Shown: positions 796 to 42,100, numbered from the stretch's first letter. The stretch: 64,000 nucleotides of DNA from Bordetella parapertussis (GCA_945901405.1 CAMDLH010000006.1:1-64000); one strand, 5' to 3'. Notes: generated by a model not told the origin, from the letters alone. Program-made: numbers and translations.

Positions 796-3700
796 TTACC
801 TTCCCTTCCCTTGCGGCGCGGCCGCGGGCGTGCGCTTGAATGGCGCGAGTGCTTCATCGGCCCAGTTCATCCAGTGTGTATCCGCCTTGGCACCATTGTT
901 ACCCTTCGCGCCCCGAGCCTTGGCTTCCAGCGAATTTAGACGTTCGGCGCGCTTATCCATCAGGACGAGCGCGCCGGAATCATCGATGCGCGCGCCGCCC
1001 AACACCTCGACCATCGGCGCAACCCAATCGGGCGGCGCGCCGCTAAAGCCAAGGCCAAGCCGCCACAAGCGCAGATTGCCATCCGCCGCCCCCGTCGCAA
1101 CCCAGTCGTGCCCGCCAATAGCCGCAACGCCGCTGACATCATAGTCGTGGCGCAACGGGTCGGCAACCAGTTGGCCGCTGCGGATGTCCCACACACGCAC
1201 CGCGCGATCGCGCGCGCTGGTGGTCAGCCAGCGGCCATCGGCGCTGAATTCGATGCGCGTGACGAGCGCGTTGTGCTTCATCGGTGCACCCACCGGATTC
1301 AAACTATCGCGCGACCACACCTGCACGAAGCCGTCGATCCCGCTTGATGCGAAGCGCGCGCCATCGCGGCTGTAACGCACGGTCCACACCAGGTTGCGCG
1401 CGCCGCGGCTTGCGTCCGGTGTTTTTCGCTCCTGGCGCGCGCGATTGCCGCGCTCCAGTTTCCACAACGCCATGTCCCGTCCGCTCGCTGCGATGACTTC
1501 GTTCGAATCGGGGCCGATGCTCACCGAGGTCACATCCGCCGCGTGCTGCAAGCGCGTGAGCAGCGCGCCCGTGGGGGCATCCCAGATGCGCACTTCCGCG
1601 CCCGATGCGGTCGCCACGATGCGCCCGTCGCGCGAGAGTTCCGCTTCCACCACCGGCGCACCGTGGCGCATCGCCAGACCGCGCGGCGCCGATTGCCGCA
1701 CCGACCACAAGCGCGCGCTGTGATCCTCCGCGGTGGTAAGCAGCCATTCTCCGTCGCCGCTGAATCGCACGCTGCGCAGCGCGCCGCGGTGGCGCAGCGG
1801 CTTGCCCGCCGCCGCGCCGCTCGCGGCAACCCACACACGCGCCGTGCCGTCGCCGGAACCCGTCGCCAGATGCGTGCCCGATGCACTGAAGGCGAGGCTC
1901 GTCACCGCCTCCGCATGCGCCGCGAATTGCCGCTCAAGCACCACCGGCGCCGCACCCGGCGTCGCCGTCGTATTTACTTTCCACAGCCGCACTTCGCCGC
2001 GCGCCGTGGCGCTTGCGATGCGCGAGCCGTCCGCGCTGGCCGCGAGTGCCGTCACGGCCGCGCCGTGATCGAATGCTAGGCGCGTGTTGCGCAGATGATT
2101 AGGCTGCCACAGGTGCAGCCTGCCGTCGTCGGAAATCGTCGCCACGCGCTTGCCGCCGGGGCTGAATTCCGCCGCCAGCACCGATGAATCGTGCAGCATG
2201 GGTTCCTCCATCTGCTCGCCCGCCACGCTGAAGATGCGCGCCGTGCCATCGAGCGAAGCCGTAAGCACATGGCGCTTGTCGGGGCTGAAACGCGCCGCCA
2301 CCACCGGGCCGTCGTGCATCAGCGGGGGCGCCACGATGGAGGTCGATTCGGCATGCCACACGCGCGCGGCCTGATCCTGGCAGGCGGTCAACACATGTTC
2401 ATCGTCGGCGCTGAATGACACGCTGTTCACCGGCGCAATATGCGTGAGCGCCTTGCCGTGCGGCGCACCGGTGCGCGCATCATGCAGGCGCACGGTCGCG
2501 CCCGATACCGCCACCAGCCAGCGTCCGCCGGGACTGAACGAGGCACGCCCGGCAAATGCCGCGCCGCGCGCGATTTTCTGTGTCCAGCGTGCATCCCCTG
2601 AACGCGCGTCATACAGCGTTGCGCCGCCATCGGCGAACCACGCCAGCAGGCCGGCCGCATCGGGCGAAAATTCGAGCGCCGTGAGCAACTGCGTTTCGGC
2701 AAACTTGATTTTGAGCGAATCAGGAGACTCGCCCGCAACGACCGCGATTTCGTGATTCGACAATTGATAGGCAAACAGGCGGCCGGCAACATTGACGGCC
2801 TGGATACCGTTTACGTCACGTCTGCCGAATGTCTTCAGTGCGTCCAGGGATTTTGCATCGAAGACCACATTCTCGCCTTTGCGTGACCGCAGTATCGTAC
2901 GCGATTGCGCATCAAAACGCAGGTTGTTGTCCGGCCTGTCCTTGGCCGTCAAACCCATGGATAGCGCGGGGGTGCGGCTCGCGGCCAGGCGCTTCAAGTC
3001 AGGACTGTCCGCCAGTTTCCAAACACGATACGGGTCGCCGGCCAGCACGAGGCGATCGCCGAGCATCAACCGGTTGTCGTCGAGCCATGCGATCTCCGGG
3101 CGCACCAACTGCTCCGGCAACGGACGCTCCGCCGCATGCAGCGGGTAGCTGCGTTGATTCACCAGCGTCACCACGCGCGCCGCCGCGGCTTCGTTATTCG
3201 GGTTCAGGCGCATGGCCTTGGCAAGATAGGCTTGCGGGTCGCGCGGCGTGCGGTTCTCCAGGCTGATATTGGCTTGTGTCACCAGCACGTTCGATTGAGT
3301 CTCGACCACGCGATTTTTTTCCACCACGGCGCGTTGCATGAGCACCGCCATTACCACCGCCAACCCCAGCACCGCCACCCCGGCCGCGACGCCGATACCG
3401 ATGATGCGCCGCGTGCGCCGCCGCCGCTCGCGATCCTGCGCGAGGCGCTGCGCTTCGGCCTCGCGCGCCTGACGCTGATCGCGGCTGTCGCGCACCACGC
3501 GCGTCAACACATCGTGCGTGAGCTCGATGCGCAGCACGCCGAAGCGTTCATCCAGTCGCAACAGGCGCCGCGCCACCAAGGCGTCGATCGCTTCCTGCGT
3601 CACCCCCGGCAAGCGCCGCGCGTCTTCCAGCGCGTAGCTGTCGCGGTAGCCCGCCTCGGTGAGCAACTGGTCTTCAACGAACACGCGCATGCCGGGGTCA

Positions 3701-4725
3701 AGATCGGCCACGCTGCGCTCGTAAAAATTGGAGATGATTTCCTGCTGCGCGCCGGCTTCAAGCAAATCGCCGGTGATCTGCTCGCGGCCGGCGGCGATGC
3801 GCTTGTTGTTCAACTCGCGGCATACCAGGCTTAGCAACGCGGGTTCGATTTCCTGATAGATGCTGGTTTGTTCCGCGCCGTCAACCTCACCCTCGCCAGC
3901 ACCACCGCGCGGCCCCGCGACGAAACCGATGATGCGCCCGGCCACGCCGGAGGCGATCAAGTGTCCGCCCGATTGCGTGATGGCTTCCAGCGCCTGCGTG
4001 CCGTTCATGCGGGTGAGGCGCATGCGGTTTTGCATGATCGAACGGATGACGCGGCGCAGGCCCTCGAAGTCGGGCAAAAAGTCTTCGCGGAATGCGAGCA
4101 GCACCTTGCAATTGCGCTTGCCGAAATCCAGCTTTGCCGCCGCATCGGGATTTTCTTCGAGCCGCCGTTCGACCGCCGCGGGCGTGCGGTTCTCGATCAA
4201 ATCGCCCAGCTCGGTGATGAACGTGCGGCAGCGCAGCCGCATCTCGTCGCTGTGGCGCCCGAGGGTGAAAATTTCCTCGAATTGATCGAGCACCAGCACC
4301 GGGGTCAGCAGCCGGTTGCGCGCGCTCCAGAAATCAAGCTCCGAGTCGTGAAAATATTCCCACAGCGTTTCGTCCTCGCGCGGCGCGCGTGCATCGACGC
4401 CGTGATCGCGCAGATTTTGCGCGAGTATGGTCTTGACCTGCGCGCCGAACGCGGGCGCATCGGGCGAGACTTCAAGCCGGATGTAGACCGGCAAAAAATC
4501 CTCGCGCCGCAGACGCGGAAACAGGCCCGCGCTCAACAGCGAGGATTTGCCCAGGCCCGACTGACCGAAGAGCACGGTGAGCAGCTCGCGCTTGATAAGG
4601 CGCAGCAACTCCGCGGCCTCGGTGTCGCGGCCGTGAAAATACGCCTGAATTTCCTCGGTGAAAGGAACCAGCCCCGGCCACGGGTGCTCGGCGTTGACGC
4701 CCTGAAATCCGCCCGGCGCGCTCAT
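796..4725 (-). CDS. STAND-type NTPase with transmembrane segment and C-terminal WD40 propellers
   Basis: This 1309-aa protein begins with an nSTAND1-like NTPase: a PGLVPF...FHGRD entry motif, Walker A GQSGLGKS at about 54-61, and Walker B VLVLDQFEEIF at about 143-152. A winged-helix-like region follows up to about 410. A basic coiled stretch then precedes one transmembrane helix at about 441-463. From about 650 to the end there are roughly 13 WD40 repeats (such as HDGPVVAARFSPD...LDGTARIF), enough for two beta-propellers. STAND proteins use the repeat domain as sensor and the NTPase as oligomerisation switch. The gene overlaps the SIR2/TIR gene start by 4 nt, so the two are probably co-translated. 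The trigger and the effector coupling are inferred, not shown. Confidence 0.9.
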   Translation of the reverse strand: MSAPGGFQGVNAEHPWPGLVPFTEEIQAYFHGRDTEAAELLRLIKRELLTVLFGQSGLGKSSLLSAGLFPRLRREDFLPVYIRLEVSPDAPAFGAQVKTILAQNLRDHGVDARAPREDETLWEYFHDSELDFWSARNRLLTPVLVLDQFEEIFTLGRHSDEMRLRCRTFITELGDLIENRTPAAVERRLEENPDAAAKLDFGKRNCKVLLAFREDFLPDFEGLRRVIRSIMQNRMRLTRMNGTQALEAITQSGGHLIASGVAGRIIGFVAGPRGGAGEGEVDGAEQTSIYQEIEPALLSLVCRELNNKRIAAGREQITGDLLEAGAQQEIISNFYERSVADLDPGMRVFVEDQLLTEAGYRDSYALEDARRLPGVTQEAIDALVARRLLRLDERFGVLRIELTHDVLTRVVRDSRDQRQAREAEAQRLAQDRERRRRTRRIIGIGVAAGVAVLGLAVVMAVLMQRAVVEKNRVVETQSNVLVTQANISLENRTPRDPQAYLAKAMRLNPNNEAAAARVVTLVNQRSYPLHAAERPLPEQLVRPEIAWLDDNRLMLGDRLVLAGDPYRVWKLADSPDLKRLAASRTPALSMGLTAKDRPDNNLRFDAQSRTILRSRKGENVVFDAKSLDALKTFGRRDVNGIQAVNVAGRLFAYQLSNHEIAVVAGESPDSLKIKFAETQLLTALEFSPDAAGLLAWFADGGATLYDARSGDARWTQKIARGAAFAGRASFSPGGRWLVAVSGATVRLHDARTGAPHGKALTHIAPVNSVSFSADDEHVLTACQDQAARVWHAESTSIVAPPLMHDGPVVAARFSPDKRHVLTASLDGTARIFSVAGEQMEEPMLHDSSVLAAEFSPGGKRVATISDDGRLHLWQPNHLRNTRLAFDHGAAVTALAASADGSRIASATARGEVRLWKVNTTATPGAAPVVLERQFAAHAEAVTSLAFSASGTHLATGSGDGTARVWVAASGAAAGKPLRHRGALRSVRFSGDGEWLLTTAEDHSARLWSVRQSAPRGLAMRHGAPVVEAELSRDGRIVATASGAEVRIWDAPTGALLTRLQHAADVTSVSIGPDSNEVIAASGRDMALWKLERGNRARQERKTPDASRGARNLVWTVRYSRDGARFASSGIDGFVQVWSRDSLNPVGAPMKHNALVTRIEFSADGRWLTTSARDRAVRVWDIRSGQLVADPLRHDYDVSGVAAIGGHDWVATGAADGNLRLWRLGLGFSGAPPDWVAPMVEVLGGARIDDSGALVLMDKRAERLNSLEAKARGAKGNNGAKADTHWMNWADEALAPFKRTPAAAPQGKGR

Positions 4726-6122
4726 GCGTGGCCGCGCTCGCGTTTGCGGTAATCGCGCACGATCTTCACCATGCGCGATTCAAATTCGGCGGTGACTGCC
4801 CCCGCTGGCAGGCGCGTCCACTGCGCCTGGCGAAAGCGCTCCGGCACGGTTTCGGAATACTCGTTGGTGTCGTCGATCACCACCGGCAGGATGAACGGTA
4901 CGGTATCGGCGATGCCCAGCGAACGCTCGATGGCGAGATTCCACTCGCGGCGGAAGTAGCCCTCGAGCCGGCGCTCGGTGTTGCGCGAAATCACCGGTAT
5001 GAACAGCGAGCAACCCTTGATATGACGCTTGATCTTGGCATCATACTGGTCGCCCGCTTCGAGCCTGTCCTTATCGAACCATACGTCTAGGCCCAGCTCG
5101 CCCAGCGATGTTTGCAGGCTTTGAACAGCCTCCAGATCTTCCTTGGCATAGCTCACGAAGATGGCGCCGGGCGGTGCGTCGTCTGACTCGCCCTCGGCTG
5201 GCGCGGCAACCGCGGGCGCCGCGGCGGCAGGCTGTTCAGGATGGCGCTTCACCCAGCGCGCGTAAAGCTCATCGACGAACGCGGCGCCGCGCGCCGGAAA
5301 CAGCTTGGTGCTGTAACTGAAACTTTGCAAAAACATCACCAAGTTGGCATCGTGGCTTGCGTGTTCGTCCACCAGTATTTCGGTTTCGCTGCGTTGCATG
5401 GAAAGCTGGCGGCTCTTGGCGATGCGAATAAAAAACCGCGCCAGCCAATCCTGAAACGTGCAGCCGATAATCAGCAGATGGTTGTTTTGCAATTCATCGA
5501 ACAACAAGTGCGGGCGCTTCGACTCGGCTTGCAGCGCATGCAAAAACTCCAGCGTGTCTTCCTCGGTGATCACATAATCGGGCGCCGCCGACACCTTGCC
5601 GAGCAGGCCGTAGACCAGTGGGCGCGTGAGTTTTTTGCGCTCACACGGCAAATCCTGTGACTTGTTCGGCGCGAAAGCGAGGTGCTCGGCCTGTGCCACG
5701 CTGTTCAAGCGCGCCGCGCTGATGGCGTCGGCGAGCAACGTATCAAACGTGAGGCTCACGTAAAGATCGAAGTTGCGTATGCGCGCGAGCTTCAGCAATG
5801 CTTCGGGCGGTGCGACCTGCACTTCCTTCATGATGTTGCGGATTTTCGGATACAGTTCCTCGCGCCGGCCGCGTCCTTGCAGGTAACGGCACACCACGCT
5901 GTTGAGCGTGACCTCGCCGCCCTCCCCCTCCGCCGGCGGCAAACGCAGACGCTCGGCCAGCCGCTCGGCGACGTGTGTGTAGAGATTGACCTGCCTGCCA
6001 TCGATGATGACATCAAGCATGTCGGGCCCGATGATGGGAATGACGCGCTTGTCCTCGATGCATTCGAGCAGATCGTCCCAGAAATCCTCGTCGTCCATAT
6101 CCGGTGTCATGGCCGCGGTCAT
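4722..6122 (-). CDS. SIR2-like plus TIR domain protein (putative NADase effector)
   Basis: The 466-aa protein has an N-terminal SIR2-like Rossmann domain, about residues 12-285 (IPIIGPDML, SLTFDTLL, DYVITEED, LLIIGCTFQDWLARF). An Ala/Pro linker leads to a C-terminal TIR domain, about 319-460 (AIFVSYAKEDLEAVQSLQTSL...DVWFDKDRLEAGDQY...CSLFIPVISRNTERR). The FRREWNLA motif holds a Glu (about 393) at the place of the catalytic Glu of TIR NADases. The SIR2 part lacks the usual HxHG motif: the corresponding stretch reads VYGLLGK, so its NADase activity is doubtful. The ATG overlaps the stop of the ankyrin gene (ATGA), and the downstream STAND gene also overlaps, suggesting one complex or pathway. 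Confidence 0.85.
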   Translation of the reverse strand: MTAAMTPDMDDEDFWDDLLECIEDKRVIPIIGPDMLDVIIDGRQVNLYTHVAERLAERLRLPPAEGEGGEVTLNSVVCRYLQGRGRREELYPKIRNIMKEVQVAPPEALLKLARIRNFDLYVSLTFDTLLADAISAARLNSVAQAEHLAFAPNKSQDLPCERKKLTRPLVYGLLGKVSAAPDYVITEEDTLEFLHALQAESKRPHLLFDELQNNHLLIIGCTFQDWLARFFIRIAKSRQLSMQRSETEILVDEHASHDANLVMFLQSFSYSTKLFPARGAAFVDELYARWVKRHPEQPAAAAPAVAAPAEGESDDAPPGAIFVSYAKEDLEAVQSLQTSLGELGLDVWFDKDRLEAGDQYDAKIKRHIKGCSLFIPVISRNTERRLEGYFRREWNLAIERSLGIADTVPFILPVVIDDTNEYSETVPERFRQAQWTRLPAGAVTAEFESRMVKIVRDYRKRERGHA

Positions 6123-7945
6123 GGTGTGAGCAGCTTGATGAGTTCGTCGCGATTGCGCGGCGGTTTGCCCGTGCCGCCAAGCTGGTCGTTGAAATAATCA
6201 AGCGCGGTCTTGCCGCCGGCCTCGGATTTATCTCTTGCGTACTTGCGCGCCCCGCTCTTGATCAATGCCGGCGCCGCGTCCCATCTGCGCTCGATGACAG
6301 CCGCGTGCAGCGGCGTACGGCCAGAGCTGTCGGGCGCATTGACGTCAGCGCCCTTGGCCACCAGGAACTCAATCACGGCGGGTTTGCGCGCATGGTGCAA
6401 CGGTGTCGCGCCACCGTGCATAGTCACATTGACGCTGCCGCTGCTGTTTATAAGTTGTTGTATTAATTCAGTTTTTTCGCCAGCCGCTGCGGCGTGCATG
6501 AGAGTTTCGCCGTTCGCCGTGCGTGCCTCGTAACCGCCCGCGCGCGCGATCCATTCGCCGAAAAGTTTTACGTCGCCGCCGCGCGCCAGCGCGTGCGCGA
6601 GCGTCGCGCCCCGGCTGTTTTGCACATCCGCCCGCGCGCCGCGCGCCGCCAGTAGATCCATGGCGCGGCGTTTGTGTTCATACGGCTTGCTGGATTGCGC
6701 CACGATCATCAACGGCGTGTTGCCAGAGTTGTCCGCCTGATTCGCATCGGCCTTGGCGTCAAGGTACAAAGTTAGCGCCGCCAGCGATTCACGCGCGGCG
6801 GCCGCGACGTCGGGCATGCCGCCGTCACCCACATCGTCGAGCGGCGCGCCTGCCGCGCGCAGCGTTTCGAATAACCGCTCGTTGCTGAATGCCGCGTCTA
6901 GCAACGCGCCAGGATCGATATGCGCGCCGTGCGCGATCAGCATTTGCATGATCTCGACACGGCGCTCTACTTCGCCAACCGAGTAGTACGACACGGCGGA
7001 CATGTTGTTGGCGGACGCCGGAGTCTTGCGCCCCCAGATCGCGATCTGCACGAGGTTCGCTTCCATCTCGCGCAGATTGCCCGCGCGCCCGATCACCTCG
7101 CGCACCACGGCGGGCGCGCCCGACTTGACGCCATTCACCAGCAATTCACTTTGTGCTGCCGGCGCGGCCGCGCTGGGTTTGAGCAGGAAAAGGCGCTGCA
7201 GAGGACCGCTCAGGTAGGCTGATCCCGTATTCGCGGGGTCGGCAACAAACTTGATCGATATCAACAACACCGTCACCAGGACGCCCACGCACAGAAACAC
7301 GAGCAACATGCGCAGCACGGTACGCGCGATGTTCTTGAGGCGGCGCGTCCAGGTGAGTGGCGCGGCCGGCGCCACGGCAGGACGCAAACGCGCGAGTGCT
7401 GTCTCGAATGCAAGCGCATCCGCCGGCGCATAGCGCCAGTTGCCGTGCGCCCCCGTAATGCGATAGTTATTCAGCACGCTAAGGCTATTCGCGGCAAATG
7501 TTTTTCGGTCGATTTGGAGAATCTCGCCCCATTGCAAACTCACGGTTCGGCCCATGCGCCGCGTGAGCCGCATGCCGCTGGCGCCGGTCTCCACATGGCT
7601 TATACCGCGCGACCACCACCACACCCAGTGGCCGAGTATCAACACCAGAGCCACCCCCAGCCATTCGCTAAACGCGTCTTCGGCGAAGCGCCCAAGTTCG
7701 GGCACGAAGCCGCCAATAAACGACAATGCGGAAGGAAGGGTGCTAATCAGCAAGGCCGGCGCCGCAATCGCCGCCATCACGCTGACCAGAATCCAGCTAT
7801 ACAGCGCGGCGCAAAACACCGCTGCGTCCTTCCATCCCGCGGGGAAAGGCCGGCTATCGAAGTGGATATCGTAACAGCCGCCCGCTGCCTCGCCAGCCGA
7901 GGCCGCCGGAGTAGACTGCGCAACAAGAAACGAGGCCGGCTGCAT
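6119..7945 (-). CDS. multi-pass membrane protein with C-terminal ankyrin repeats
   Basis: The 608-aa protein has hydrophobic segments at about 41-65, 93-112 and 212-236. A PH-like or YcxB-like soluble stretch (MRLTRRMGRTVSLQWGEILQIDRKTF) lies between the second and third. The C-terminal 250 residues carry ankyrin repeats, for example NSGNTPLMIVAQ, NGETLMHAAAAGEKTELIQQLI, GGATPLHHARKPAVIEFLVAKGADVN and SGRTPLHAAVIERRWDAAPALIKSGA. It is the first gene of the minus-strand unit and overlaps the SIR2/TIR gene by ATGA. It probably anchors or senses for the SIR2/TIR-STAND pair at the inner membrane; that role is inferred from context only. Confidence 0.8.
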   Translation of the reverse strand: MQPASFLVAQSTPAASAGEAAGGCYDIHFDSRPFPAGWKDAAVFCAALYSWILVSVMAAIAAPALLISTLPSALSFIGGFVPELGRFAEDAFSEWLGVALVLILGHWVWWWSRGISHVETGASGMRLTRRMGRTVSLQWGEILQIDRKTFAANSLSVLNNYRITGAHGNWRYAPADALAFETALARLRPAVAPAAPLTWTRRLKNIARTVLRMLLVFLCVGVLVTVLLISIKFVADPANTGSAYLSGPLQRLFLLKPSAAAPAAQSELLVNGVKSGAPAVVREVIGRAGNLREMEANLVQIAIWGRKTPASANNMSAVSYYSVGEVERRVEIMQMLIAHGAHIDPGALLDAAFSNERLFETLRAAGAPLDDVGDGGMPDVAAAARESLAALTLYLDAKADANQADNSGNTPLMIVAQSSKPYEHKRRAMDLLAARGARADVQNSRGATLAHALARGGDVKLFGEWIARAGGYEARTANGETLMHAAAAGEKTELIQQLINSSGSVNVTMHGGATPLHHARKPAVIEFLVAKGADVNAPDSSGRTPLHAAVIERRWDAAPALIKSGARKYARDKSEAGGKTALDYFNDQLGGTGKPPRNRDELIKLLTP

Positions 7946-8004
7946 GATTTTGTCGTTGGAATGCCGTGTCGAATGATCGCGAACTCATTATACTTTGAAG
8001 CCAC

Positions 8005-9906
8005 ATGAACACGCCCGCCGATCTGGATTCTTTGTTGCGCACCTGGGAAGAGCGCGACCCCGCGGCATGGCGCGGCGACGCCAATCGTTATATCGATCTC
8101 GGCCGGCAGGCAATTTCGCTCGGCCAATACGTGATCGCGGCGGATATTCTGGGTGAGGCGCTGAGCGCGTTTCCGGACGACGCCACGATACTTTACTACT
8201 CGGCCCTGGCGCTCGCCCGCAGCGGCGCACGAGGGCTTGCCATGCAACACGTCGGGCGCCTGCTGGCGCGCACCGGCCTCGATCCAAAGGTGCGCGGCGA
8301 GGCGCTGAGTCTCGCCGGGCGCATCGCCAAGGATCGCATGGCCGCACTCGAAGACGCCCCGGAGGGCAGGCAGGCCGCCGCCCAGGCGCGCGGCTACTAC
8401 CTTGAAGCGTGGCGTCAAACCGGAGATTTTTTCCCAGGCATCAACGCCGCGACGCTAAGCCTGATGATGGGTGAAACAGCGGACGCGCGGCGCATCGCGG
8501 GCGAAGTCGTGGCGCTGTGCGTGGATACGCCGAACGCGGATCATTGGCTGCACGCAACCCTGGGCGAAGCATCCGTGCTGCTCGGCGAACGCGACGAGGC
8601 CGTGCGCTGGTATACGAAAGCGCGCGACCAGGCCGGCAAGCGCTATGGCGATCTTGCCAGCATGCGGCGGCAATTGCGCCTGCTGGCGCCGCATACACAC
8701 CTTGCGCGCGACATGCTCGGCGTATTGCACATTCCGCGCGTGGCGTTGTTTACCGGCCACATGATCGACGCGCCCGGCCGCGCGCAACCGCGTTTCCCCG
8801 CGCACCTTGAAGCGGCGGCGCAAGCAGCCATCGCAAACACGCTGGATCAGGTGGATATCGGCTTCGCTTATTGTTCGGCGGCATGCGGCGCTGACATTCT
8901 GTTCATTGAACAGGCGCTGGCGCGAAACATCGAAGTCACCGTAGTGCTGCCCTTCGGCCGCGAGGATTTCATACGCACCAGCGTACAGCATGCAGGCGCG
9001 GACTGGGTCACGCGGTTTGATGACGTGCTGTCACGCGCCGCCACGGTGACGGTGTGCGTGGACGAAGGTTATCTTGGCGACAACGTACTGTTTGGTTTTG
9101 CCGCGTACCTCACACAGGGGCTCACGCTGCTGCGCGCGCGCCAGCTCGAGACCGAAGCCGTGCTGATCGCCGTCGCCGAACCAGACCCGGCGCCCGCGAA
9201 AGGCGGCACATGGTCCAACGTGCTCGACTGGCGCGCACTGGGCCTGGCGGAACACGTCGTCGATCTACGTGACTTGCGCTCCAAAACGCCGCCGCCGCGT
9301 GGCGGCGGCACGATGCAACCAACCGCTGAAGTACGACCCGAAGCGCACGGCAAGTCGTGGGGCAAGCGCCAGATCAAAACCATGCTGTTCGCGGACGTGG
9401 TGGGATTCAGCAAACTCATGGAAGCGAGCGCGCCTGCGTTTTATTTCGATTTTCTGGGCCGCGTCGCACAGGAAATCGAAGCCTCGGCGGTGGCACCCAT
9501 CGCGAGCAATACCTGGGGCGATGGTCTATTCATTGTTTACGACGACGCGGCGCCCGCGGTTGAATTCGCCCTGCGCCTGCGCGACACGATCACGCGCACT
9601 GATTGGCGCGCGATGGGCTTGCCGCAACTCACCGCGCGCATCGCCATGCATACCGGCCCGGTGTTTCAGGCGTTCGACCCGGTGATTAAGGGCATCAACC
9701 ATTTCGGCTCGCACGTCACGCGCGCCGCGCGCATCGAGCCGGTGACAGCACCCGGCAGCGTCTATGTCACCGAGCAAACCGCCGCGATGCTGAAGGTAGA
9801 TGGCAATCAGGATTTCGCCTGCGATTATTTGGGCAAGATCACGCTCGCCAAGGCCTATGGCGCGACCGTGCTCTATCGCGTGCGGCGCGCGGCGGAGGAT
9901 GAGTAG
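8005..9906 (+). CDS. TPR/TRAFs-binding-like + SLOG-like + class III nucleotidyl cyclase protein
   Basis: The 633-aa protein has three parts. Residues 1-230 are helical TPR-like repeats resembling the MAP3K TRAFs-binding/DUF4071 family. About 245-410 is a Rossmann-like SLOG-type domain (ALFTGHMIDAPGR, CGADILFIEQAL, VVLPFGREDF, ADWVTRFDDVL). About 455-625 is a class III cyclase (MLFADVVGFSKLM, NTWGDGLFIVYDD, HVTRAARIEPV). The two metal Asp residues are present (Asp464, Asp506). The adenine-selecting Lys is Asn (NTWGD for KTxGD) and the Asn of VNxAAR is Thr, so the product is uncertain. It is divergent from the ankyrin/SIR2-TIR/STAND genes across 59 bp, which suggests shared control and possibly a nucleotide signal for that locus. 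Confidence 0.8.
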   Translation: MNTPADLDSLLRTWEERDPAAWRGDANRYIDLGRQAISLGQYVIAADILGEALSAFPDDATILYYSALALARSGARGLAMQHVGRLLARTGLDPKVRGEALSLAGRIAKDRMAALEDAPEGRQAAAQARGYYLEAWRQTGDFFPGINAATLSLMMGETADARRIAGEVVALCVDTPNADHWLHATLGEASVLLGERDEAVRWYTKARDQAGKRYGDLASMRRQLRLLAPHTHLARDMLGVLHIPRVALFTGHMIDAPGRAQPRFPAHLEAAAQAAIANTLDQVDIGFAYCSAACGADILFIEQALARNIEVTVVLPFGREDFIRTSVQHAGADWVTRFDDVLSRAATVTVCVDEGYLGDNVLFGFAAYLTQGLTLLRARQLETEAVLIAVAEPDPAPAKGGTWSNVLDWRALGLAEHVVDLRDLRSKTPPPRGGGTMQPTAEVRPEAHGKSWGKRQIKTMLFADVVGFSKLMEASAPAFYFDFLGRVAQEIEASAVAPIASNTWGDGLFIVYDDAAPAVEFALRLRDTITRTDWRAMGLPQLTARIAMHTGPVFQAFDPVIKGINHFGSHVTRAARIEPVTAPGSVYVTEQTAAMLKVDGNQDFACDYLGKITLAKAYGATVLYRVRRAAEDE

Positions 9907-10065: not shown

Positions 10066-10380
10066 TTGGTCTTTATCGAAACCTCTCAATTCAGCAAATT
10101 GCTGGGGCAATACCTGAATGATGATGCCTATCGCGGCCTGCAAAACCATTTGATGGCGCAGCCCGATGCTGGAGCCATCATTCGAGAGTCCGGCGGCGTG
10201 CGCAAGGTTCGTTGGGGTGCGGGCAACAAAGGCAAGTCGGGCGGCGTGCGAGTGATTTATTACTGGATAACGGCTAAAGCGCAAATTGTGATGCTCACGA
10301 TGTATGCCAAGGGCGAGCAAGAGACCCTTAGCGCAGCACAGCTAAAGCGCATCGTGAAACTGCTTGAGGGACTCAAATGA
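10066..10380 (+). CDS. HigB2/RelE-type toxin
   Basis: The 104-aa product matches the RelE/HigB2 ribosome-dependent mRNA interferase family: an N-terminal FIETSQFSKLLGQYLNDDAYRGLQ helix, the GGVRKVRWG strand, SGGVRVIYYW and the MLTMYAKGEQETLSAAQ C-terminal strand-helix. The start is a TTG (TTG GTC TTT ATC GAA); the family N-terminus aligns there and the next Met would delete the first helix. The antitoxin gene follows with an ATGA overlap, the toxin-first order typical of higBA. Confidence 0.85.
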   Translation: MVFIETSQFSKLLGQYLNDDAYRGLQNHLMAQPDAGAIIRESGGVRKVRWGAGNKGKSGGVRVIYYWITAKAQIVMLTMYAKGEQETLSAAQLKRIVKLLEGLK

Positions 10381-10730
10381 AAAAACGCAATATCGGCAAT
10401 GAAATTATTGAAGGCTTGGAAGAATTCAAGTCGTGGCAGCAGGGCAAAGTCAAACTCAAAACCCACAAGGTTGAAATGCCGACGGCCTCGGATGTGCCTG
10501 CCATACGCAAAGAACTGGGACTGTCGCAGACCGAATTCGCCGGATTCATGGGCGTGAGTGTAGGCACACTGCGAAATTGGGAACAAGCGCGGCGCGAACC
10601 GCACGGGCCAGCGCGTGCGCTTTTGCTGGTAGCTTCAAAGCAGCCCGCTGCGGTGCGCGCGGCCTTCCGCGCTTCACTACCTGTTACTCGCGTGACCACC
10701 CTCACCGGGCGACTGCAAAAAGCAGCATAG
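10377..10730 (+). CDS. HigA2-type XRE antitoxin
   Basis: The 117-aa protein carries a Cro/C1 helix-turn-helix in its middle (IRKELGLSQTEFAGFMGVSVGTLRNWEQARREPHGPARALL). An N-terminal arm (MKKRNIGNEIIEGLEEFKSW) resembles toxin-binding arms of HigA2/NadS proteins. The ATG overlaps the toxin stop by 4 nt, so translation is coupled. Such antitoxins neutralise HigB and repress the operon. No clear operator could be picked out upstream of 10066. Confidence 0.85.
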   Translation: MKKRNIGNEIIEGLEEFKSWQQGKVKLKTHKVEMPTASDVPAIRKELGLSQTEFAGFMGVSVGTLRNWEQARREPHGPARALLLVASKQPAAVRAAFRASLPVTRVTTLTGRLQKAA

Positions 10731-10746
10731 CAACGCGGTAACAACG

Positions 10747-11037
10747 ATGCGCACCAAACTGAAAATGACACGCGGCAGCGGCAATGTGTTTCAGGACGTG
10801 GGGTTCTCACCCGGCGAAGCAAACAACCTGATGCTGCGCGCGCAACTCATGACGCGCGTGCGTGACGCCGCCCGTGGCGCATCGCAGCGCGAAGCAGCCA
10901 AGCGCTTCGGCATCAATCAGCCGCGCCTTAACGATGTGTTGCGCGGCAGGATCGACAAATTCAGTCTCGATGCGCTGGTAAACATGCTGGCGCATGCGGG
11001 CATGCGCGTGGAACTGCGCGTAAAGAAAGCTGCGTAG
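10747..11037 (+). CDS. XRE-family antitoxin-like regulator without adjacent toxin
   Basis: The 96-aa protein has a helix-turn-helix of the HigA-like type (SQREAAKRFGINQPRLNDVLRGRIDKFSLDALVNMLAHAGMRVELRV). The GFSPGEANNLMLRAQLM leader is typical of antitoxins whose partner is a RelE/Gp49-like toxin encoded just upstream. Here the upstream gene is instead the HigA antitoxin of another pair, 16 nt away, so this looks like an orphan antitoxin that lost its toxin. It could also act as an extra regulator of the neighbouring modules. Confidence 0.7.
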   Translation: MRTKLKMTRGSGNVFQDVGFSPGEANNLMLRAQLMTRVRDAARGASQREAAKRFGINQPRLNDVLRGRIDKFSLDALVNMLAHAGMRVELRVKKAA

Positions 11038-11171
11038 CAAATCGCTTGCAAGGCGACACGCCACTGATGCGGCGCGAAGGCGATACAGAGTGCCGCACCA
11101 GTGATTACCGAGTGGGCGCACCCGGCGTAGCGTGGTGGACTCACCGTATCCCATAATATACAATACGCACA

Positions 11172-11468
11172 TTGAACACGATTCAAACCACGGAGACGTT
11201 TGACGCCTGGTTCAAAGGTTTGCGCGACCGAAAAGCGAAGGCGCGCATTCAGGTGCGCATCGACCGCGCGGAAGAAGGAAATTTCGGCGACTGCGAACCG
11301 GTGGGCAAGGGCGTATCCGAAATGCGCATTCACCAAGGCGCGGGGTATCGGGTGTATTGGAAACGCCATGGACGTGAATGGGTGGTTCTGCTGGCCGGCG
11401 GCAACAAGGCCACACAGCAGGCCGATATTAAAACCGCGCTGCGGCTGGCGCGCGAACTGGAGCGTTGA
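11172..11468 (+). CDS. RelE/HigB-type addiction module killer protein
   Basis: The 98-aa protein matches the short HigB-like 'addiction module killer' family: TTETFDAWFKGLRDRKAKARIQVRIDRAEEGNFGDCEPVGKGVSEMRIHQGAGYRVYWKRHGREWVVLLAGGNKATQQADI. The conserved GNKxTQxxDI end is visible. The start codon is TTG (TTG AAC ACG), placed where family members begin; an AT-rich TAATATACAATAC stretch lies about 10 nt upstream and may contain a -10 element. The antitoxin begins 3 nt after the stop. Confidence 0.85.
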   Translation: MNTIQTTETFDAWFKGLRDRKAKARIQVRIDRAEEGNFGDCEPVGKGVSEMRIHQGAGYRVYWKRHGREWVVLLAGGNKATQQADIKTALRLARELER

Positions 11469-11470
11469 AC

Positions 11471-11770
11471 ATGGGAAAACTCAAACTGCGCAAGTGGGAT
11501 AGCGCCGAGCACCTGAACAGCGATGAGGATATCGCGCTGTATCTGGACGCCTGTTTAGCGGAAGCGGGTGACGACCCCGCCTTCATCGCCAAGGCGCTGG
11601 GCAACATCGCGCGTGCGCGCGGCATGAGCCAGCTTGCGCGTGAAACCGGATTGGGACGCGAAAGCCTCTACAAAGCACTTTCCGGCGAAGGCAATCCGAG
11701 CTTTGCAACCATCCTCAAAGTGATACATGCGCTGGGCGTGAAGCTGCACGCGGAAACCGCGCAGGCGTAG
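11471..11770 (+). CDS. addiction module antidote protein, XRE type
   Basis: The 99-aa product (MGKLKLRKWDSAEHLNSDEDIALYLDACLAEAGDDPAFIAKALGNIARARGMSQLARETGLGRESLYKALSGEGNPSFATILKVIHALG...) is a typical putative antidote protein pairing with the preceding HigB-like killer. It has an HTH at about 50-90. The ORF track begins at a TTG two codons earlier that overlaps the toxin stop. The ATG at 11471 with a GGAG sequence about 8 nt upstream is preferred. Confidence 0.85.
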   Translation: MGKLKLRKWDSAEHLNSDEDIALYLDACLAEAGDDPAFIAKALGNIARARGMSQLARETGLGRESLYKALSGEGNPSFATILKVIHALGVKLHAETAQA

Positions 11771-13887: not shown

Positions 13888-13963
13888 TGGTGCCGCTGGT
13901 CCGACTCGAACGGACGACCTGACGCTTACGAAGCGCCTGCTCTACCAACTGAGCTACAGCGGC
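13888..13963 (-). tRNA. tRNA-Thr (anticodon CGT)
   Basis: The minus strand folds as a standard 76-nt tRNA with encoded CCA. It has acceptor GCCGCTG/CAGCGGC, D-arm GCTC-AGTTGGTA-GAGC, anticodon stem GGCGC/GCGTC around TTCGTAA, and T-arm GTCCG-TTCGAGT-CGGAC. The anticodon CGT reads ACG, giving threonine. The tRNA separates the toxin-antitoxin island at 10-13 kb from the catabolic genes. tRNA genes are common island attachment sites, though no duplicated tRNA end was found here. Confidence 0.95.
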
Positions 13964-35845: not shown

Positions 35846-36283
35846 ATGGAAAAGGAACGGGAAATGAAATTTGCAACACACTTGGGACGGCTTTCGAGCA
35901 CCCGGCGCGTTGGCTTCACATTGATTGAAGTCATGATCGTTGTTGCGGTAATTGGGCTACTGTCCGTAATTGCCTACCCGTCTTACACACAATATGTAAT
36001 TCGCGCCAATCGGTCAGCAGCACAGCAATTCATGTTGTCTATAGCAAGCCGCCAAGAACAATATGTGTTGGACAATCGCGCCTACGCATCAACGATTGCC
36101 GCGCTAGGACTTACTGCACCGGCAGAAACAACCACGCGCTATACGTTCTCCGTTGCATTGGTTGCAGGCCCGCCACCAGGCTACACCATTACAGCGACGT
36201 CGATTGGACCGCAAGTGTCTGATGGAAACCTTACGCTAGATAATTTGGGCACCAAGACCCCGGCTGACAAGTGGAAGAAATAG
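35846..36283 (+). CDS. pilE: type IV minor pilin PilE
   Basis: The 145-aa prepilin has a 23-residue leader ending in RRVG, then FTLIEVMIVVAVIGLLSVIAYPSYTQYVIRANRSAAQQFMLSIASRQEQYVLDNRAYA, the PilE pattern with Glu5. It is a minor pseudopilin of the assembly-initiating complex. An AGGA sequence lies 7 nt before the ATG at 35846; an internal ATG at 35864 is an alternative. It opens the operon followed by fimT, pilV, pilW, pilX and pilY1. Confidence 0.88.
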   Translation: MEKEREMKFATHLGRLSSTRRVGFTLIEVMIVVAVIGLLSVIAYPSYTQYVIRANRSAAQQFMLSIASRQEQYVLDNRAYASTIAALGLTAPAETTTRYTFSVALVAGPPPGYTITATSIGPQVSDGNLTLDNLGTKTPADKWKK

Positions 36284-36290
36284 GGTCGTC

Positions 36291-36884
36291 ATGACAAATG
36301 ATTCGCCTTTTCTCGATATGGGCTCAGATCGATTCGACTGCGCGCAATCCGCGTCACGTTGCCAGCTTGGGTTCACAATCATTGAATTAATGATGACGGT
36401 TGTGCTGCTTGGTGTTTTGATGACGCTCGCCGCCCCCAATTTGACCAATCTGGTTCGGGAGCAACGGGTCAAAACCGCAACGTCCGATTTGTACGTGAGT
36501 CTAATATATGCACGAAGCGAATCTATTAAACGCAATATGTACGTGGCTGTTTGCGCCAAGAACTCGGATGGCAGCGGTTGCGGCAATACCACTGACTGGT
36601 CTAAAGGTTGGATAGTATTTTTGGACGCCGACGGAAACGGCTATCCAGGCGCCGTCTCCGACATACTCAAAAAACAAGACGCGTTTTCGGACCTGACGTT
36701 AACTGGCACTGTAAGCAATGTTTCGTATCAACGGGATGGCAGGCTGAGGGCCGCTGCGTCTACATTTGTAATTAGTTCATCTGTCAGTGCGACAGTGGTC
36801 GCACGCTGCGTCAGCCTCGACCTCAGCGGACGGCCAAACACCAAGGTAGACACCAACAACAATGCATCTGACGGTTGCCAATAG
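36291..36884 (+). CDS. fimT: GspH/FimT-family minor pseudopilin
   Basis: The 197-aa prepilin (leader ending CQLG, then FTIIELMMTVVLLGVLMTLAAPNL) has the FimT/GspH body: VREQRVKTATSDLYVSLIYARSESIKRN, DWSKGWIVFLDADGNG and the QRDGRLR segment. A disulphide-bonded C-terminus is likely (VARCVSLD...SDGCQ). FimT-like proteins also bind DNA in some naturally competent species; that is not shown here. It is 7 nt from pilE. Confidence 0.85.
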   Translation: MTNDSPFLDMGSDRFDCAQSASRCQLGFTIIELMMTVVLLGVLMTLAAPNLTNLVREQRVKTATSDLYVSLIYARSESIKRNMYVAVCAKNSDGSGCGNTTDWSKGWIVFLDADGNGYPGAVSDILKKQDAFSDLTLTGTVSNVSYQRDGRLRAAASTFVISSSVSATVVARCVSLDLSGRPNTKVDTNNNASDGCQ

Positions 36885-36920
36885 TTGCGCGTCTAATTTT
36901 CATAAACCACGAATCATAAA

Positions 36921-37535
36921 ATGAAACCCAATCGCTCATTGCCCGCAAACACCGGGTTTACGCTGCTTGAAGTGCTGATTAGCATGCTGATTATTGCACT
37001 GGGGTTGCTCGGCCTCGCAGGAATGCAGGTGCGCATGCAGCAAGCTGAAATTGAATCCTACCAACGCTCTCAGGCCTTGGTGCTGCTCTACGATATGGTA
37101 GAACGCATCCAGCTCAACCGCGCAACGGCCGCTTGCTTTGCGATTACCACGAATACAACGGCGGGGACTCCGTACTACGGTACTGGAGTTAACACCGCTG
37201 CGGGTTGCACGCTAAGCTCTAGCGCGAATAACACGATGGCGGACAATGCCAAAATTGAATGGGACAACACGCTGGATGGCGCTTCCGAAACCTCGGGCGG
37301 GGGGGCTTCGGTGGGTTCGATCGTCGGCGCCCGCGGCTGCGTTAGCTACGGGACTGAATTACTCAATCCCGCCGGCGCAGCCATACCGGGAACCGGCATT
37401 TATACGGTCAGTGTCGCATGGCAAGGCAGTGTAGACACGGTTATACCCACTGCAAATTGTGCGAATGGCCTTTATGGCACGGAAACAAAACGACGTGTGG
37501 TGTCCACTACCTTCCGGTTAGCCGAACTTAACTGA
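36921..37535 (+). CDS. pilV: type IV minor pilin PilV
   Basis: The 204-aa prepilin has a 12-residue leader (MKPNRSLPANTG) then FTLLEVLISMLIIALGLLGLAGMQVRMQQAEIESYQRSQALVLLYDMVERIQLNR. This RSQALxLxxDMxxRixxNR motif is diagnostic of PilV. The domain after it is Gly/Ala/Thr-rich and variable. It fits the conserved operon order FimT-PilV-PilW-PilX-PilY1. Confidence 0.88.
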   Translation: MKPNRSLPANTGFTLLEVLISMLIIALGLLGLAGMQVRMQQAEIESYQRSQALVLLYDMVERIQLNRATAACFAITTNTTAGTPYYGTGVNTAAGCTLSSSANNTMADNAKIEWDNTLDGASETSGGGASVGSIVGARGCVSYGTELLNPAGAAIPGTGIYTVSVAWQGSVDTVIPTANCANGLYGTETKRRVVSTTFRLAELN

Positions 37536-37547
37536 CTTGAGTCCGAC

Positions 37548-38651
37548 ATGATCCCTAATCAATCCAGCTTCAACAAGCTCCGCGGTTTTTCGCTGATCGA
37601 ACTGCTGATTGCACTGGCGATCGGACTCCTTTTACTGGCTGGCCTAACAGTGGTATTCGTGAACTCCAGCGAGGCAAACCGGGAGCTCCAGAAAACCTCG
37701 CAGCAGATCGAAAATGGGCGATTTGCAATTGACACGCTCACGCAAAATCTTCACCACGCTGGCTACTATGGCCACCTTTACACGATGCCCGCGGCGCCGG
37801 CACTGCCTGACCCGTGCAATGTGGATGCCTCGGACGCCGCCAAGCGTGGGGTGTTGTTTTCCGCTCTGGCGTTTCCAGTTCAAGGGTACCGCGCGCCAGA
37901 TATGGTTACGATCGCGGATGTCACCGCCACGACGTGCGATTCTTCGTTGCTCACCTCTGCTAACTTGCAGCCTGGATCAGATGTTTTGGTAATCAGGCGT
38001 GCGAACACCAAAGCACTTGCAGTCGGTGATACCGCTGTAACCAACGATGTTTATATTCAGTCCATTGGTATCGAGGGAGAAGTGCAGATCGGTGGAGGCG
38101 CCGCTTATGTTGCCGGAACAAAGGCGGATGGCGGCGCATCAACCTTGTTCCTGAAAAACGGCACTACCGCCGCCCCCATACGTAAGTACATGGTTCATGT
38201 CTACTTCGTTGCACCCTGCAGCGTCGGCAGCGGCACGAATGCAGTTTGTACCAGCACGGACGACACGATTCCCACGCTGAAAAGGCTCGAACTGGTATCC
38301 GAAGGCGGCGCCACGAAAATGAAGATCGTGCCGCTGGTCGAGGGTATTGAATACATGAAGATAGAGTATGGCATCGATACTCTCCCCGCGGCTGTAAACC
38401 CCACGACACAGCTTACTGGCGATGCCACTGTCGACAGCTACACGGCAACGCCCGGCGATTGGACATCGGTAATCGCGGCCAAGGTGTTTCTGTTAGCACG
38501 CAACACGGAAGCAACGGGTTTCCATACAGACACAAAGTCTTACACGTTGGGAACAGCAGCAGTTGCCGCTAAAAATGATCGCTATAAACGCCATGTCTAT
38601 TCGGCGGCGGTTCGACTGGTTAATCCAGCAGGAAGAAGGGAAATTCCATGA
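37548..38651 (+). CDS. pilW: type IV minor pilin PilW
   Basis: The 367-aa prepilin has a 13-residue leader (MIPNQSSFNKLRG) then FSLIELLIALAIGLLLLAGLTVVFVNSSEANRELQKTSQQIENGRFAIDTLTQNLHHAGYYG. The QxENGRFAxxxLxxxLxxAGYYG motif is a PilW hallmark. The C-terminus has the LRDRY-like helix (KNDRYKRHVYSAAVRLVNPAGRRE). Its stop overlaps the pilX start (ATGA). It is part of the complex priming pilus assembly and anchoring PilY1. Confidence 0.88.
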   Translation: MIPNQSSFNKLRGFSLIELLIALAIGLLLLAGLTVVFVNSSEANRELQKTSQQIENGRFAIDTLTQNLHHAGYYGHLYTMPAAPALPDPCNVDASDAAKRGVLFSALAFPVQGYRAPDMVTIADVTATTCDSSLLTSANLQPGSDVLVIRRANTKALAVGDTAVTNDVYIQSIGIEGEVQIGGGAAYVAGTKADGGASTLFLKNGTTAAPIRKYMVHVYFVAPCSVGSGTNAVCTSTDDTIPTLKRLELVSEGGATKMKIVPLVEGIEYMKIEYGIDTLPAAVNPTTQLTGDATVDSYTATPGDWTSVIAAKVFLLARNTEATGFHTDTKSYTLGTAAVAAKNDRYKRHVYSAAVRLVNPAGRREIP

Positions 38652-39088
38652 TTCACACATATCACCGGCAACGCGGCGCCACGCTACTGGTCAGCTTAAT
38701 CATGCTCGTAGTGCTTACGCTGTTTGCAGTCACTGGATTTAATCTTTCCAGCGTCAATCTCAAAATTGCGGGCAATTTTCAGCAACAACGCTATGTTGAA
38801 GCCGTGGTGCAACAAGCCATCGAGCAAGTCATTAGCACCAGCACCGCGTTCAATTCCGCGGCTGCATTGCCTGCGCCTATTACCATCGATGGCATTACCG
38901 TGTCTTTTAATCTTTTCAGTTGCAACTACTATGTAACTGCAACGGGTTACACCAAAAAGATTGGCGAAATGGCCCCCGAGGATACCGATTGGGAAATGCG
39001 GGCGAGTGCGACTGACAGCTTCGGAGGCGCCACCGCAACCGTTTCACAAGGCGTGCGTGCTCGCTTGCTTGCCGGCAATTGTCCTTAA
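38648..39088 (+). CDS. pilX: type IV minor pilin PilX
   Basis: The 146-aa protein has a short leader (MIHTYHRQRG) and an ATLLVSLIMLVVLTLFAVTGFNLSSVNLKIAGNFQQQRYVEAVVQQAIEQVI helix. It lacks the Glu5 of normal pilins, as in PilX/GspK tip subunits. The TLxAxNxxxR-like pattern is weaker than usual but present in position. It is translationally coupled to pilW and precedes pilY1. Confidence 0.85.
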   Translation: MIHTYHRQRGATLLVSLIMLVVLTLFAVTGFNLSSVNLKIAGNFQQQRYVEAVVQQAIEQVISTSTAFNSAAALPAPITIDGITVSFNLFSCNYYVTATGYTKKIGEMAPEDTDWEMRASATDSFGGATATVSQGVRARLLAGNCP

Positions 39089-39119
39089 TTACACTGAATA
39101 AGTCATACGGAACACGGTC

Positions 39120-42100
39120 ATGAAACGCAAAATACACATTCTGCTAAACACCTGCCTTGCCCTGCTGCTGTCGGTTACAGCCGCATTCTCGGCATTTGAT
39201 CCGGTCAATGACGACACGGACATTTTTTTGGCCAATCCCAACATCACGGCACAGCGTCCTAATGTATTGATTATCCTAGACAATACTGCTAACTGGAATA
39301 CCCCGTTCGACGCCGAAAAGAACGCCCTCATATCAGTCATCAGTTCACTGAATGACAGTTTCAATGTCGGGTTGATGATGATGCCCGAGACGGGCAGTCC
39401 AAACGACAGCGTGGACGGTGGATACGTGCGGTTTCATGTGCGCCAGATGATCACCGCCAACAAGAACGCGCTGACCACCATGATCGGTGCACCGGGCGCC
39501 GGCCTTGATAAGCTTGGCGACAAGGGCAATAACGCGACGCATGGTGCCGCGCTCTACGAAGCGTATCTGTACTATGCTGGCCTTGCGTCGGTTGCAAGTT
39601 ATGGCAAAGTCAAAACGGATCACGACGGCACCACCGACCCGTTGCTGTCGCCGCTGGCCGGCAACCATGCGCTGCCAGCAAATCCGACTGCCAGTAGCCT
39701 GTATCGCTCGCCCATCGTCGATGGGTGTCAGAAGAACTTCATCATCCTGATCAGCAACGGCAAGGCTGACAACAACGTCACTGAAGGAAATACGATGGAG
39801 TCACGCATTACAGCGCTGACCGGAAGCAACGCCATCATTCCTTTGACGCCAAACGGCCGGCAGAGCAATTGGTCAGATGAAATGTCGCGCTACATGGCCA
39901 CCACCGACGTATACAAGAAGACTCCGGACACCGCTGCAAGCACGGGCATTCAGAACGTGTTTACCTATGTTGTTGAAATTTACCCCACGCAGGCTGACAT
40001 AGATAGCCGGACAAGCCCTGACTTGGCGTGGTCGGCGGTGATGGAAAGCACGGCGATAAACGGCAAGGGCAAATACTTTATTGTGGCTGCCGACGCCGGA
40101 GGTTCGGCCATTATTAATGCGTTGAATGCAATATTCAGCGAAGTTCAGGCGGTCAACAGCGTGTTTGCGTCCACCACATTGCCGGTATCGGTCAACGTGC
40201 GCGGCACCAACCTCAATCAGGTGTATATCGGCGTTTTCCGGCCTGACGCGAACAAGGCGCCGCGCTGGCTGGGCAATCTCAAGATGTACAACCTGGCATT
40301 CAACTCCGTGACGCAAGACGTGTTTCTTGCCGACGCCAGTGCGGGGCCACCGCCCGCAACCGGGATCGCCGCACAGGATGCGACCTCCGGGTTCGTAAAG
40401 GGCGCAGCCACCAGTTTCTGGACGGTAGACTCTACTTACTGGGGATTCCGCGACTCTTCACTAAATGGCGTCGGCGGTATATCGGATAAGCCCGACGGCG
40501 ATCTAGTGGAAAAAGGCGGTGTAGCTCAGCAAATAAGGCTGGCTTATGCCGCGGCCGAGGGAGCCACGACTCCACGCAGTCTTTACACCTGCACCAACGG
40601 CGGGTACGCGAGCCCGGGCTGTTTGCCCCTCGCCGGGTTTTCTCTACTTAACACACCATTCAGCACCGCCAACACGGACATCACCAACACCGCGCTCGCG
40701 CTCGACTCACGTGCTGTATTTCCATTGACCGCGTATGCCACACAATCGGTAACCACGGTAACCGACCGCCTGGGGGTCACACTCAACAATGGCAGCGGCA
40801 GTAGTATCTCCGTGACGTTAAGTAACGGGGGATCCGCCGTAGCTGCTATCTCGAGCCTGAACACCAATGTCGCGATTGCCATGTCCTCATACAGTGGAAG
40901 CTCGGCTGGCACCCAGGCAACAGGCGCAACAGGCAGCATTGTAAAAGCCGGTACCGGAAGTAGCACTTGTACCGCTACGTTCAGCGCAAACGTGGGAGCA
41001 CAATTTTTGGTCAGTTCGGTTGTTACGCTCAGTGGCTTTACCGGCAGCAACCAAAACGGCAATGTAACGCTTACAGCCGTCGGAACCAACACGATTACGT
41101 GGGCTTGTTCAGGCAGCATTGCAAGTGCGGCTGGCGGCCCCACCGGCACAGCGACCGTGGTTACCTTCCCATCGACAACGATTACCGGCACTTCGCCAGC
41201 GGTGCATGGCCTTGCAGTGAATGATCAAATCATAATTTCCGGGGCAACACCGACGTCGCTGAACAACACGTTTACCGTAATAGCGGTACCAACCACCACC
41301 ACTTTCAAGTTCTCGTTGCCGATCGGCTCGACCGTGATAGGCAGCGCAAGCGCGGTAGGAACAACCAACAAGTTCAGCACCACGGCGGTTGCGGTCACTT
41401 CCGCCAACCACGGTCTGGTTACCGGAAACACGATTATTATTTCGGGCGCAACACCTTCCGGTTATGACTGCGCAACCCCTTGCACCATCACCAGGATTAC
41501 CAATACCAGTTTCAGCTACCCGGTGGGCAGCAAGTTAACACCCGCAACGGTAGTGCCATCAGCCATCGCGAACGGCACGACTACGGTGGTCGCCACGAGC
41601 TTGGTCGCACACGGTTTTGTCGCGGGTAATTCCGTAACGATCAGCGGCGCAAGTCCTTCGGGTTACAACGGCGTCCAGACAGTTTTGGCGGCACCCGCGC
41701 CTACCGCAACGACTTTTGCCTACTCGACGTCGACCGTATTGACTATACCCAGCGGCACAATCACGGCAGGAACATCTACATCTTCGACGGTATCAGCGAC
41801 GACTACAGCAAGCGCCCTGCACGGCTTCGCTGCCGGTATTTCAGTGGTCATCGAGAGCACCAGTTCGCCTGCGGACGGTAACCATCCAGGCACCTGGCCC
41901 AGTATCACCACCCCAACGACGACCACGTTCACCTATGACACAGGTTCGGCCTTGCCCACCCCAACCGGAAACTTCACAGTACGGCCTGCAGTGATATCGA
42001 AAGCATATGTCACATTGGCCAATCACGGTTATTCCGACAATGATCAGATTTTGATTACGGGTGCATCGCCAGCCGGCTACAACGGGATTAAGACCATCAC

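Follow-up and report, generated by a model that had tools for sequence, protein, structure and literature searches.

We describe here a putative membrane-anchored conflict system of Bordetella parapertussis, encoded at the beginning of a 64,000-nucleotide stretch of DNA (GCA_945901405.1, CAMDLH010000006.1:1-64000; hereafter the window). Its core is a pair of genes, one for a protein that joins a SIR2 fold to a TIR domain and the other for a STAND protein with an nSTAND1 domain; a gene for a TPR-S cyclase and an ankyrin-pilin set are two add-ons. Relatives of the SIR2-TIR protein were drawn from GTDB genomes, from the family, order and phylum of the window, and from plasmids, and their neighbourhoods were scored with profiles built from the window genes and their first homologues. 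The nSTAND1 gene directly follows that of SIR2-TIR in 32/32 distinct loci (19 proteobacterial, 12 verrucomicrobial and 1 acidobacterial; two of them are incomplete, being cut or broken, yet recognisable). We suggest, with about an even chance of being right, that this is a membrane-anchored STAND/TIR conflict system leading to cell suicide or growth arrest.

None of the 29 aligned members retains either of the SIR2 residues needed for catalysis: T, S, G or some other residue stands in place of the Asn of TxNYD, and L or F in place of the His of LHG. When aligned with SeThsA, TTNYD becomes (S/T)xTFD and LHG becomes LLG, and these positions fall on Asn and His of SeThsA; in ThsA, the changes N112A/H152A abolish NAD (nicotinamide adenine dinucleotide) cleavage (PMC7272460). 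By sequence, the SIR2 part matches SeThsA only with E 0.08, and a fold search supports the match: the best hits of the SIR2-TIR model are ThsA, Avs5, KomC and DSR2, all of them NAD-consuming defence proteins. The domain is thus a pseudo-SIR2, which retains the fold without the catalytic Asn and His, and the NADase role given to it in the preliminary description of the locus is not supported. The catalytic Glu of TIR is kept in 29/29 aligned members (Glu393 in the window, codon 4946-4944), and a PDB sequence search aligned the TIR part only, to solved TIR NADases. Because SIR2 has lost its catalytic residues, any depletion of NAD must come from TIR, which we predict to be the sole NADase of the system. 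Domain profiles found no SLOG or macro domain on the chain.

The partner protein appears to be a membrane-bound switch. In the window, its nSTAND1 domain (PF20703) scores 111 bits against a cut-off of 27.1, Walker A (GQSGLGKS) and Walker B (VLVLDQFEE) are intact, and a C-terminal repeat sensor is present; Walker motifs occur in nearly all members. In 28 of the 31 STAND proteins, nSTAND1 gives way to a hydrophobic segment bearing basic residues on the N side; the remaining three are errors of open reading frame (ORF) boundaries. As the positive charges of this transmembrane helix lie on the ATPase side, the WD40 repeats, and with them the sensor, should be placed outside the cytoplasm. The preliminary description lacks this membrane anchor. 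The ankyrin protein is built of hydrophobic N-terminal segments, a soluble loop, a further transmembrane helix and ankyrin repeats, and the repeats are predicted, by hydropathy only, to lie outside in the same sense as WD40.

In the window, four intact ORFs are present (Table 1), and orthologous gene order in other genomes rules out chance ORFs. The four genes had been described beforehand as coding for an ankyrin membrane protein, a SIR2-TIR protein, a STAND-WD40 protein and a divergent TPR-SLOG-cyclase. Pfam bears out nSTAND1 (1.3e-31) with WD40, SIR2_2 (3.3e-9) with TIR_2 (1.4e-16), ankyrin repeats (2e-28), and TPR-S (3.7e-15) with Guanylate_cyc (9.5e-13), while SLOG lacks profile support. 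Both minus-strand junctions read CATGA and are true ATGA overlaps, and the 59-bp divergent spacer is likewise as described. Coupling of three minus-strand genes is correct as far as it goes; the operon is longer, since the gene of pilin 1 (291-791), missed at that time, starts 4 bp past the STAND stop. The contig terminates at window base 1, which is its own base 1, so the operon is truncated here. A second SIR2-TIR/STAND pair resides on contig 100 of the same genome. Elsewhere, one Opitutaceae metagenome-assembled genome (F1-140-MAGs074) harbors four SIR2-TIR/STAND copies (L068, L069, L070, L077), which suggests a lineage-specific expansion.

Table 1. Features at the beginning of the window and their positions
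Feature	Position	Strand	Remarks
Type IV pilin (pilin 1), 166 aa	291-791	-	Pfam Pilin 2.2e-12, N_methyl 1e-8; class III leader KKNG^FTLIEL
nSTAND1-transmembrane-WD40 protein, 1309 aa	796-4725	-	nSTAND1 ~4683-3430; transmembrane helix ~3411-3319; WD40 ~3045-1057
Pseudo-SIR2-TIR protein, 466 aa	4722-6122	-	SIR2-like fold residues ~11-295 (6092-5238); TIR residues ~319-445 (5168-4788)
Ankyrin-repeat membrane protein, 608 aa	6119-7945	-	Pfam, hydropathy; homologues in L060, L061, L062, L067
Divergent intergenic region, 59 bp	7946-8004		between ankyrin gene (-) and cyclase gene (+)
Weak sigma-70-like site	7972-7944	-	9/12 consensus matches
TPR-S/Rossmann-like/class III cyclase, 633 aa	8005-9906	+	TPR-S 8137-8460; Rossmann-like ~8737-9264; cyclase ~9364-9888
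Small toxin-antitoxin-type genes	10066-10380, 10377-10730, 10747-11037, 11172-11468, 11465-11770

The pilin gene is the first member of a larger cassette. After the STAND gene, four relatives (L060, L061, L062 and L067) carry genes for pilin 1, a minor-pilin-like protein, a PilC-like protein (T2SSF) and pilin 2, and L061 and L062 have, in addition, a gene for a PilN-PilO fusion upstream of that for the ankyrin protein. The ankyrin gene itself precedes that of SIR2-TIR in exactly these four loci and the window, that is, in 5/5 cassette loci versus 0/26 others (Fisher P 6e-6; some of the 26 are short contigs). It is not a constant upstream neighbour of SIR2-TIR, as this place is taken by a TIR protein in L056 and by an unrelated enzyme in L057. 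In the SIR2-TIR tree, the five cassette loci group into one supported clade (96/94), so the link between ankyrin gene and cassette reflects one acquisition that was kept, not five. It was kept for long, since the SIR2-TIR proteins of the clade have diverged to ~50-68% identity. When the genome of the window was queried with the PilC-like protein and pilin 2, only a 409-aa PilC (C4; ~30% identical), partial matches and host minor pilins were found, and the remaining cassette genes were therefore probably lost at the contig end. The cassette PilC-like protein, with ~350 aa, is distinct in size from this host PilC. In G027, a remnant of pilin 2 adjoins the TPR-S cyclase gene (L031 3548-3853, L032 7405-7650), whose frame carries a TAG, and a shorter trace of pilin 2 is present in G041; both look like decaying relics of the cassette.

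What the cassette does can be imagined in two ways. One proposal is that the STAND/TIR suicide system has a mini type IV pilus of its own (two pilins, the minor-pilin-like protein, the PilC-like platform and, in some members, PilN-PilO) as its sensing arm; we regard this as tentative and doubtful. The other dispenses with immunity: a small filament would be read by ankyrin and WD40 domains, the cyclase would raise cyclic AMP or cyclic GMP, and TIR and STAND would play regulatory roles in sensing of surfaces. In Pseudomonas, surface sensing proceeds via cyclic AMP by the CyaB-cAMP-Vfr route. The contiguity of the four pilus genes with the operon, the PilN-PilO genes of two relatives and the confinement of the cassette to a single clade that retained it despite SIR2-TIR divergence would all suit such a role, and so would a Crp-type protein binding cyclic nucleotide monophosphates (cNMP) beside the core in L063. 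However, core and cyclase exist without a pilin gene in 27/32 loci. Within the fetched stretches, the locus contigs yielded no gene for a T2SSE motor, and a filament would thus need the motor of the host. The company of TIR, caspase and RyR genes also points to conflict; caspase, RyR and caspase-FGE genes adjoin two other SIR2-TIR/STAND members. We therefore consider surface sensing without immunity unlikely. Genes for RyR-domain and caspase-FGE proteins recur (L061 253-7724, L065, L056 12451-16234) at two different loci, with 41% and 59% identity.

The other add-on is the divergent gene. Its product contains TPR-S (PF20308; 56.8 bits against a cut-off of 27.6) and a cyclase domain that keeps the metal-binding D464 and D506 as well as Arg576, and that is probably, though not certainly, active. 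Between them, the AlphaFold model (mean pLDDT 86) has an alternating alpha/beta, Rossmann-like domain. No Pfam SLOG profile matches residues ~245-420, and the fold search returned cyclase and TPR only among the matches listed; the SLOG identity of this domain is plausible from the model but unproven.

Is the cyclase gene part of the system at all? It could instead belong to an unrelated TPR-S cyclase that merely shares a defence or variable island with the SIR2-TIR/STAND pair. Toxin-antitoxin genes lie next to it at 10066-11770, TPR-S cyclases mostly occur elsewhere, and the position of the gene relative to the core varies. Among 19 proteobacterial loci it is near the core in seven (window, L060, L062, L063, L107, L108 and L109): divergent from the ankyrin gene in the window and from SIR2-TIR in L108 and L109, downstream of the STAND gene with a 4-bp ATGA overlap in L107, beyond the pilus cassette in L060 and 8 kb upstream in L062. 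Against such independence stands the co-occurrence of the two families. Of 399 genomes of the order, 9 have full-length SIR2-TIR, 11 the cyclase and 5 both, which is 20x the expectation of 0.25 (P 7e-7); at the level of genera, four are shared (P 4e-5), and both P values are optimistic because the genomes are related. All five co-occurring genomes have the two genes on one contig, at most 10 kb apart. The overlap in L107 and the TIR genes that recur beside the cyclase gene speak in the same direction, and we find two independent systems rather improbable. Stand-alone cyclase genes often adjoin other TIR genes (L034, L036, L128).

Two further observations concern this sensor module. Beside the core in L063 (6503-8965), an 820-aa protein combines cNMP-binding, Crp-type helix-turn-helix, TPR-S and Rossmann domains. 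It looks like a receptor for cyclic nucleotides that shares its sensor module with the cyclase, and would complete a cyclic-nucleotide loop. TPR-S cyclase genes are also present on Caballeronia plasmids; in pSBC2-4 (L117 4523-7677), the gene overlaps the preceding one, for a predicted lipoprotein, by 4 bp.

A possible order of events in the membrane-anchored STAND/TIR system is as follows. The WD40 domain would sense an event at the envelope, for example phage adsorption, foreign contact or the state of a pilus, and in the lineage of the window it may be aided by the ankyrin membrane protein together with a small assembly resembling a pilus. STAND would then bind ATP and oligomerise under the membrane. 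The pseudo-SIR2 might serve as an oligomerisation or ligand-binding scaffold that clusters TIR domains, which would cleave NAD, thereby depleting it, releasing an ADP-ribose messenger, or both. The TPR-S protein could bind the NAD-derived messenger, and the response would be spread or tuned by a cyclic nucleotide that its cyclase makes. TPR-S is said to have been predicted as a sensor of NAD-derived signals by Burroughs and Aravind in 2020.

This sequence is opposite to that of the preliminary description, in which the cyclase acts first and its product leads to NAD loss. Under such a scheme, resembling CBASS or Pycsar, cyclic nucleotide would activate the SIR2/TIR protein; the pseudo-SIR2 site could be a converted ligand-binding site, and in Thoeris, a nucleotide ligand indeed activates the SIR2 protein ThsA. 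However, STAND is present in all 32 cores but the cyclase in only some of them, and the trigger must therefore arise independently of the cyclase. Moreover, Pycsar-type cyclases pair with dedicated effectors, which are not seen here. We hold the cyclase-first order to be very unlikely, and argue for a cyclase downstream of the NADase from the TIR genes beside stand-alone cyclase genes and from the prediction reported for TPR-S.

Several facts weigh against the STAND/TIR conflict system as we propose it. The four genes fall in no system recognised by PADLOC, whose models cover neither the STAND nor the cyclase protein and match the other two by general TIR and ankyrin similarity only. The host range is strongly biased. 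In the phage collection the SIR2-TIR system had no match, and in the plasmid collection there was one weak match to SIR2-TIR (31%), on a Paraburkholderia replicon with nSTAND1 adjoining; there is thus no sign of phage-borne spread. The transition-state Asn of the cyclase is Thr in the window and Ser or Asn in relatives. SIR2-TIR is absent from 6 of the 11 genomes with the cyclase, and none of the 13 verrucomicrobial or acidobacterial core loci has a cyclase gene; therefore the cyclase is not an obligatory part. The expectation that the four families travel together accordingly holds for the core in 32/32 loci, for the cyclase as a clear excess (5/399) and for the ankyrin gene within the five-locus clade, and fails for the cyclase as a constant member. 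A housekeeping role is ruled out by the rarity of full-length SIR2-TIR, found in only 9/399 genomes of the order.

The system resembles known ones without coinciding with any of them. With Thoeris it shares a SIR2 fold and TIR in one NAD-based system, and the fold search with the SIR2-TIR model ranks ThsA first. However, Thoeris has a separate ThsB TIR and a ThsA with a SLOG or macro ligand domain, which the window system does not fit: a single chain holds both TIR and a catalytically dead SIR2, and its partner is a STAND protein with a transmembrane helix. ThsA is the killer there, and the enzyme roles are reversed here. Avs5/DSR and TIR-STAND proteins likewise couple a STAND switch to an NAD-cleaving domain; they differ in that here the effector is on a separate polypeptide, its SIR2 is dead, and STAND has a transmembrane helix and predicted external WD40. 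The cassette recalls type IV pili and minor pseudopili by its class III pilin leader, its PilC-like T2SSF protein and the PilN-PilO of two relatives, yet it has no adjoining motor ATPase or secretin and is embedded in a STAND-TIR operon. In the TPR-S and nSTAND1/EACC1 conflict systems of the Aravind group (PMC8195603, PMC7159879), TPR-S, nSTAND1, TIR, cNMP cyclase, caspase and FGE are common vocabulary. PMC8195603 cites Burroughs & Aravind 2020 in connection with ADP-ribose signalling through TIR domains, and also on the origin of the ASK signalosome in bacteria.

Every domain of the system is therefore already in the published STAND/TIR conflict vocabulary, and the cyclase part could be described already in Burroughs & Aravind 2020. 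In the literature that we searched, which does not include that paper, there was no description of pilin or PilC genes in TPR-S or nSTAND1/EACC1 conflict systems, nothing relevant on TPR-S with SLOG, cyclase or TIR, or on pilin with STAND and TIR, and no system with this exact set, in line with what had been supposed at the outset. As far as searched, three things are new: the invariant pairing of pseudo-SIR2-TIR with nSTAND1, the anchoring of this pair in the membrane, and the cassette of ankyrin, pilin and PilC genes.

The surroundings of the locus have the character of a variable island. Next to the cyclase gene, the genes at 10066-11770 are of the RelE/Gp49 toxin and helix-turn-helix antitoxin-like types. 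A tRNA-Thr (CGT; 13888-13963, minus strand) between these and a CoA-transferase pair is a possible island boundary. The stretch 35846-44063 holds a separate run of minor pilins (GspH/FimT-like at 36291, PilW at 37548), ~26 kb from the cassette pilin and distinct from it, and then, in the place of PilY1, a 1647-aa ORF at 39120 with no Pfam match.

Taken together, a SIR2 active site that is lost without exception shows how prediction of NADases goes astray when it relies on the presence of a domain alone. The recurrent pairing of TPR-S cyclase with TIR offers a testable route from an NAD-derived messenger to a cyclic nucleotide. Characterised antiviral STAND proteins watch the cytoplasm for phage proteins (PMC10907252). 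If the STAND sensor described here faces outside as predicted, then, tied to a TIR NADase, it would be an extracellular-facing bacterial immune receptor, in one lineage accompanied by a pilus cassette. Should the mini-pilus proposal be true as well, the whole would represent a trans-envelope immune receptor: phage or contact would be perceived outside the cell, and the signal passed on to a cytoplasmic NADase and a cyclic-nucleotide amplifier.

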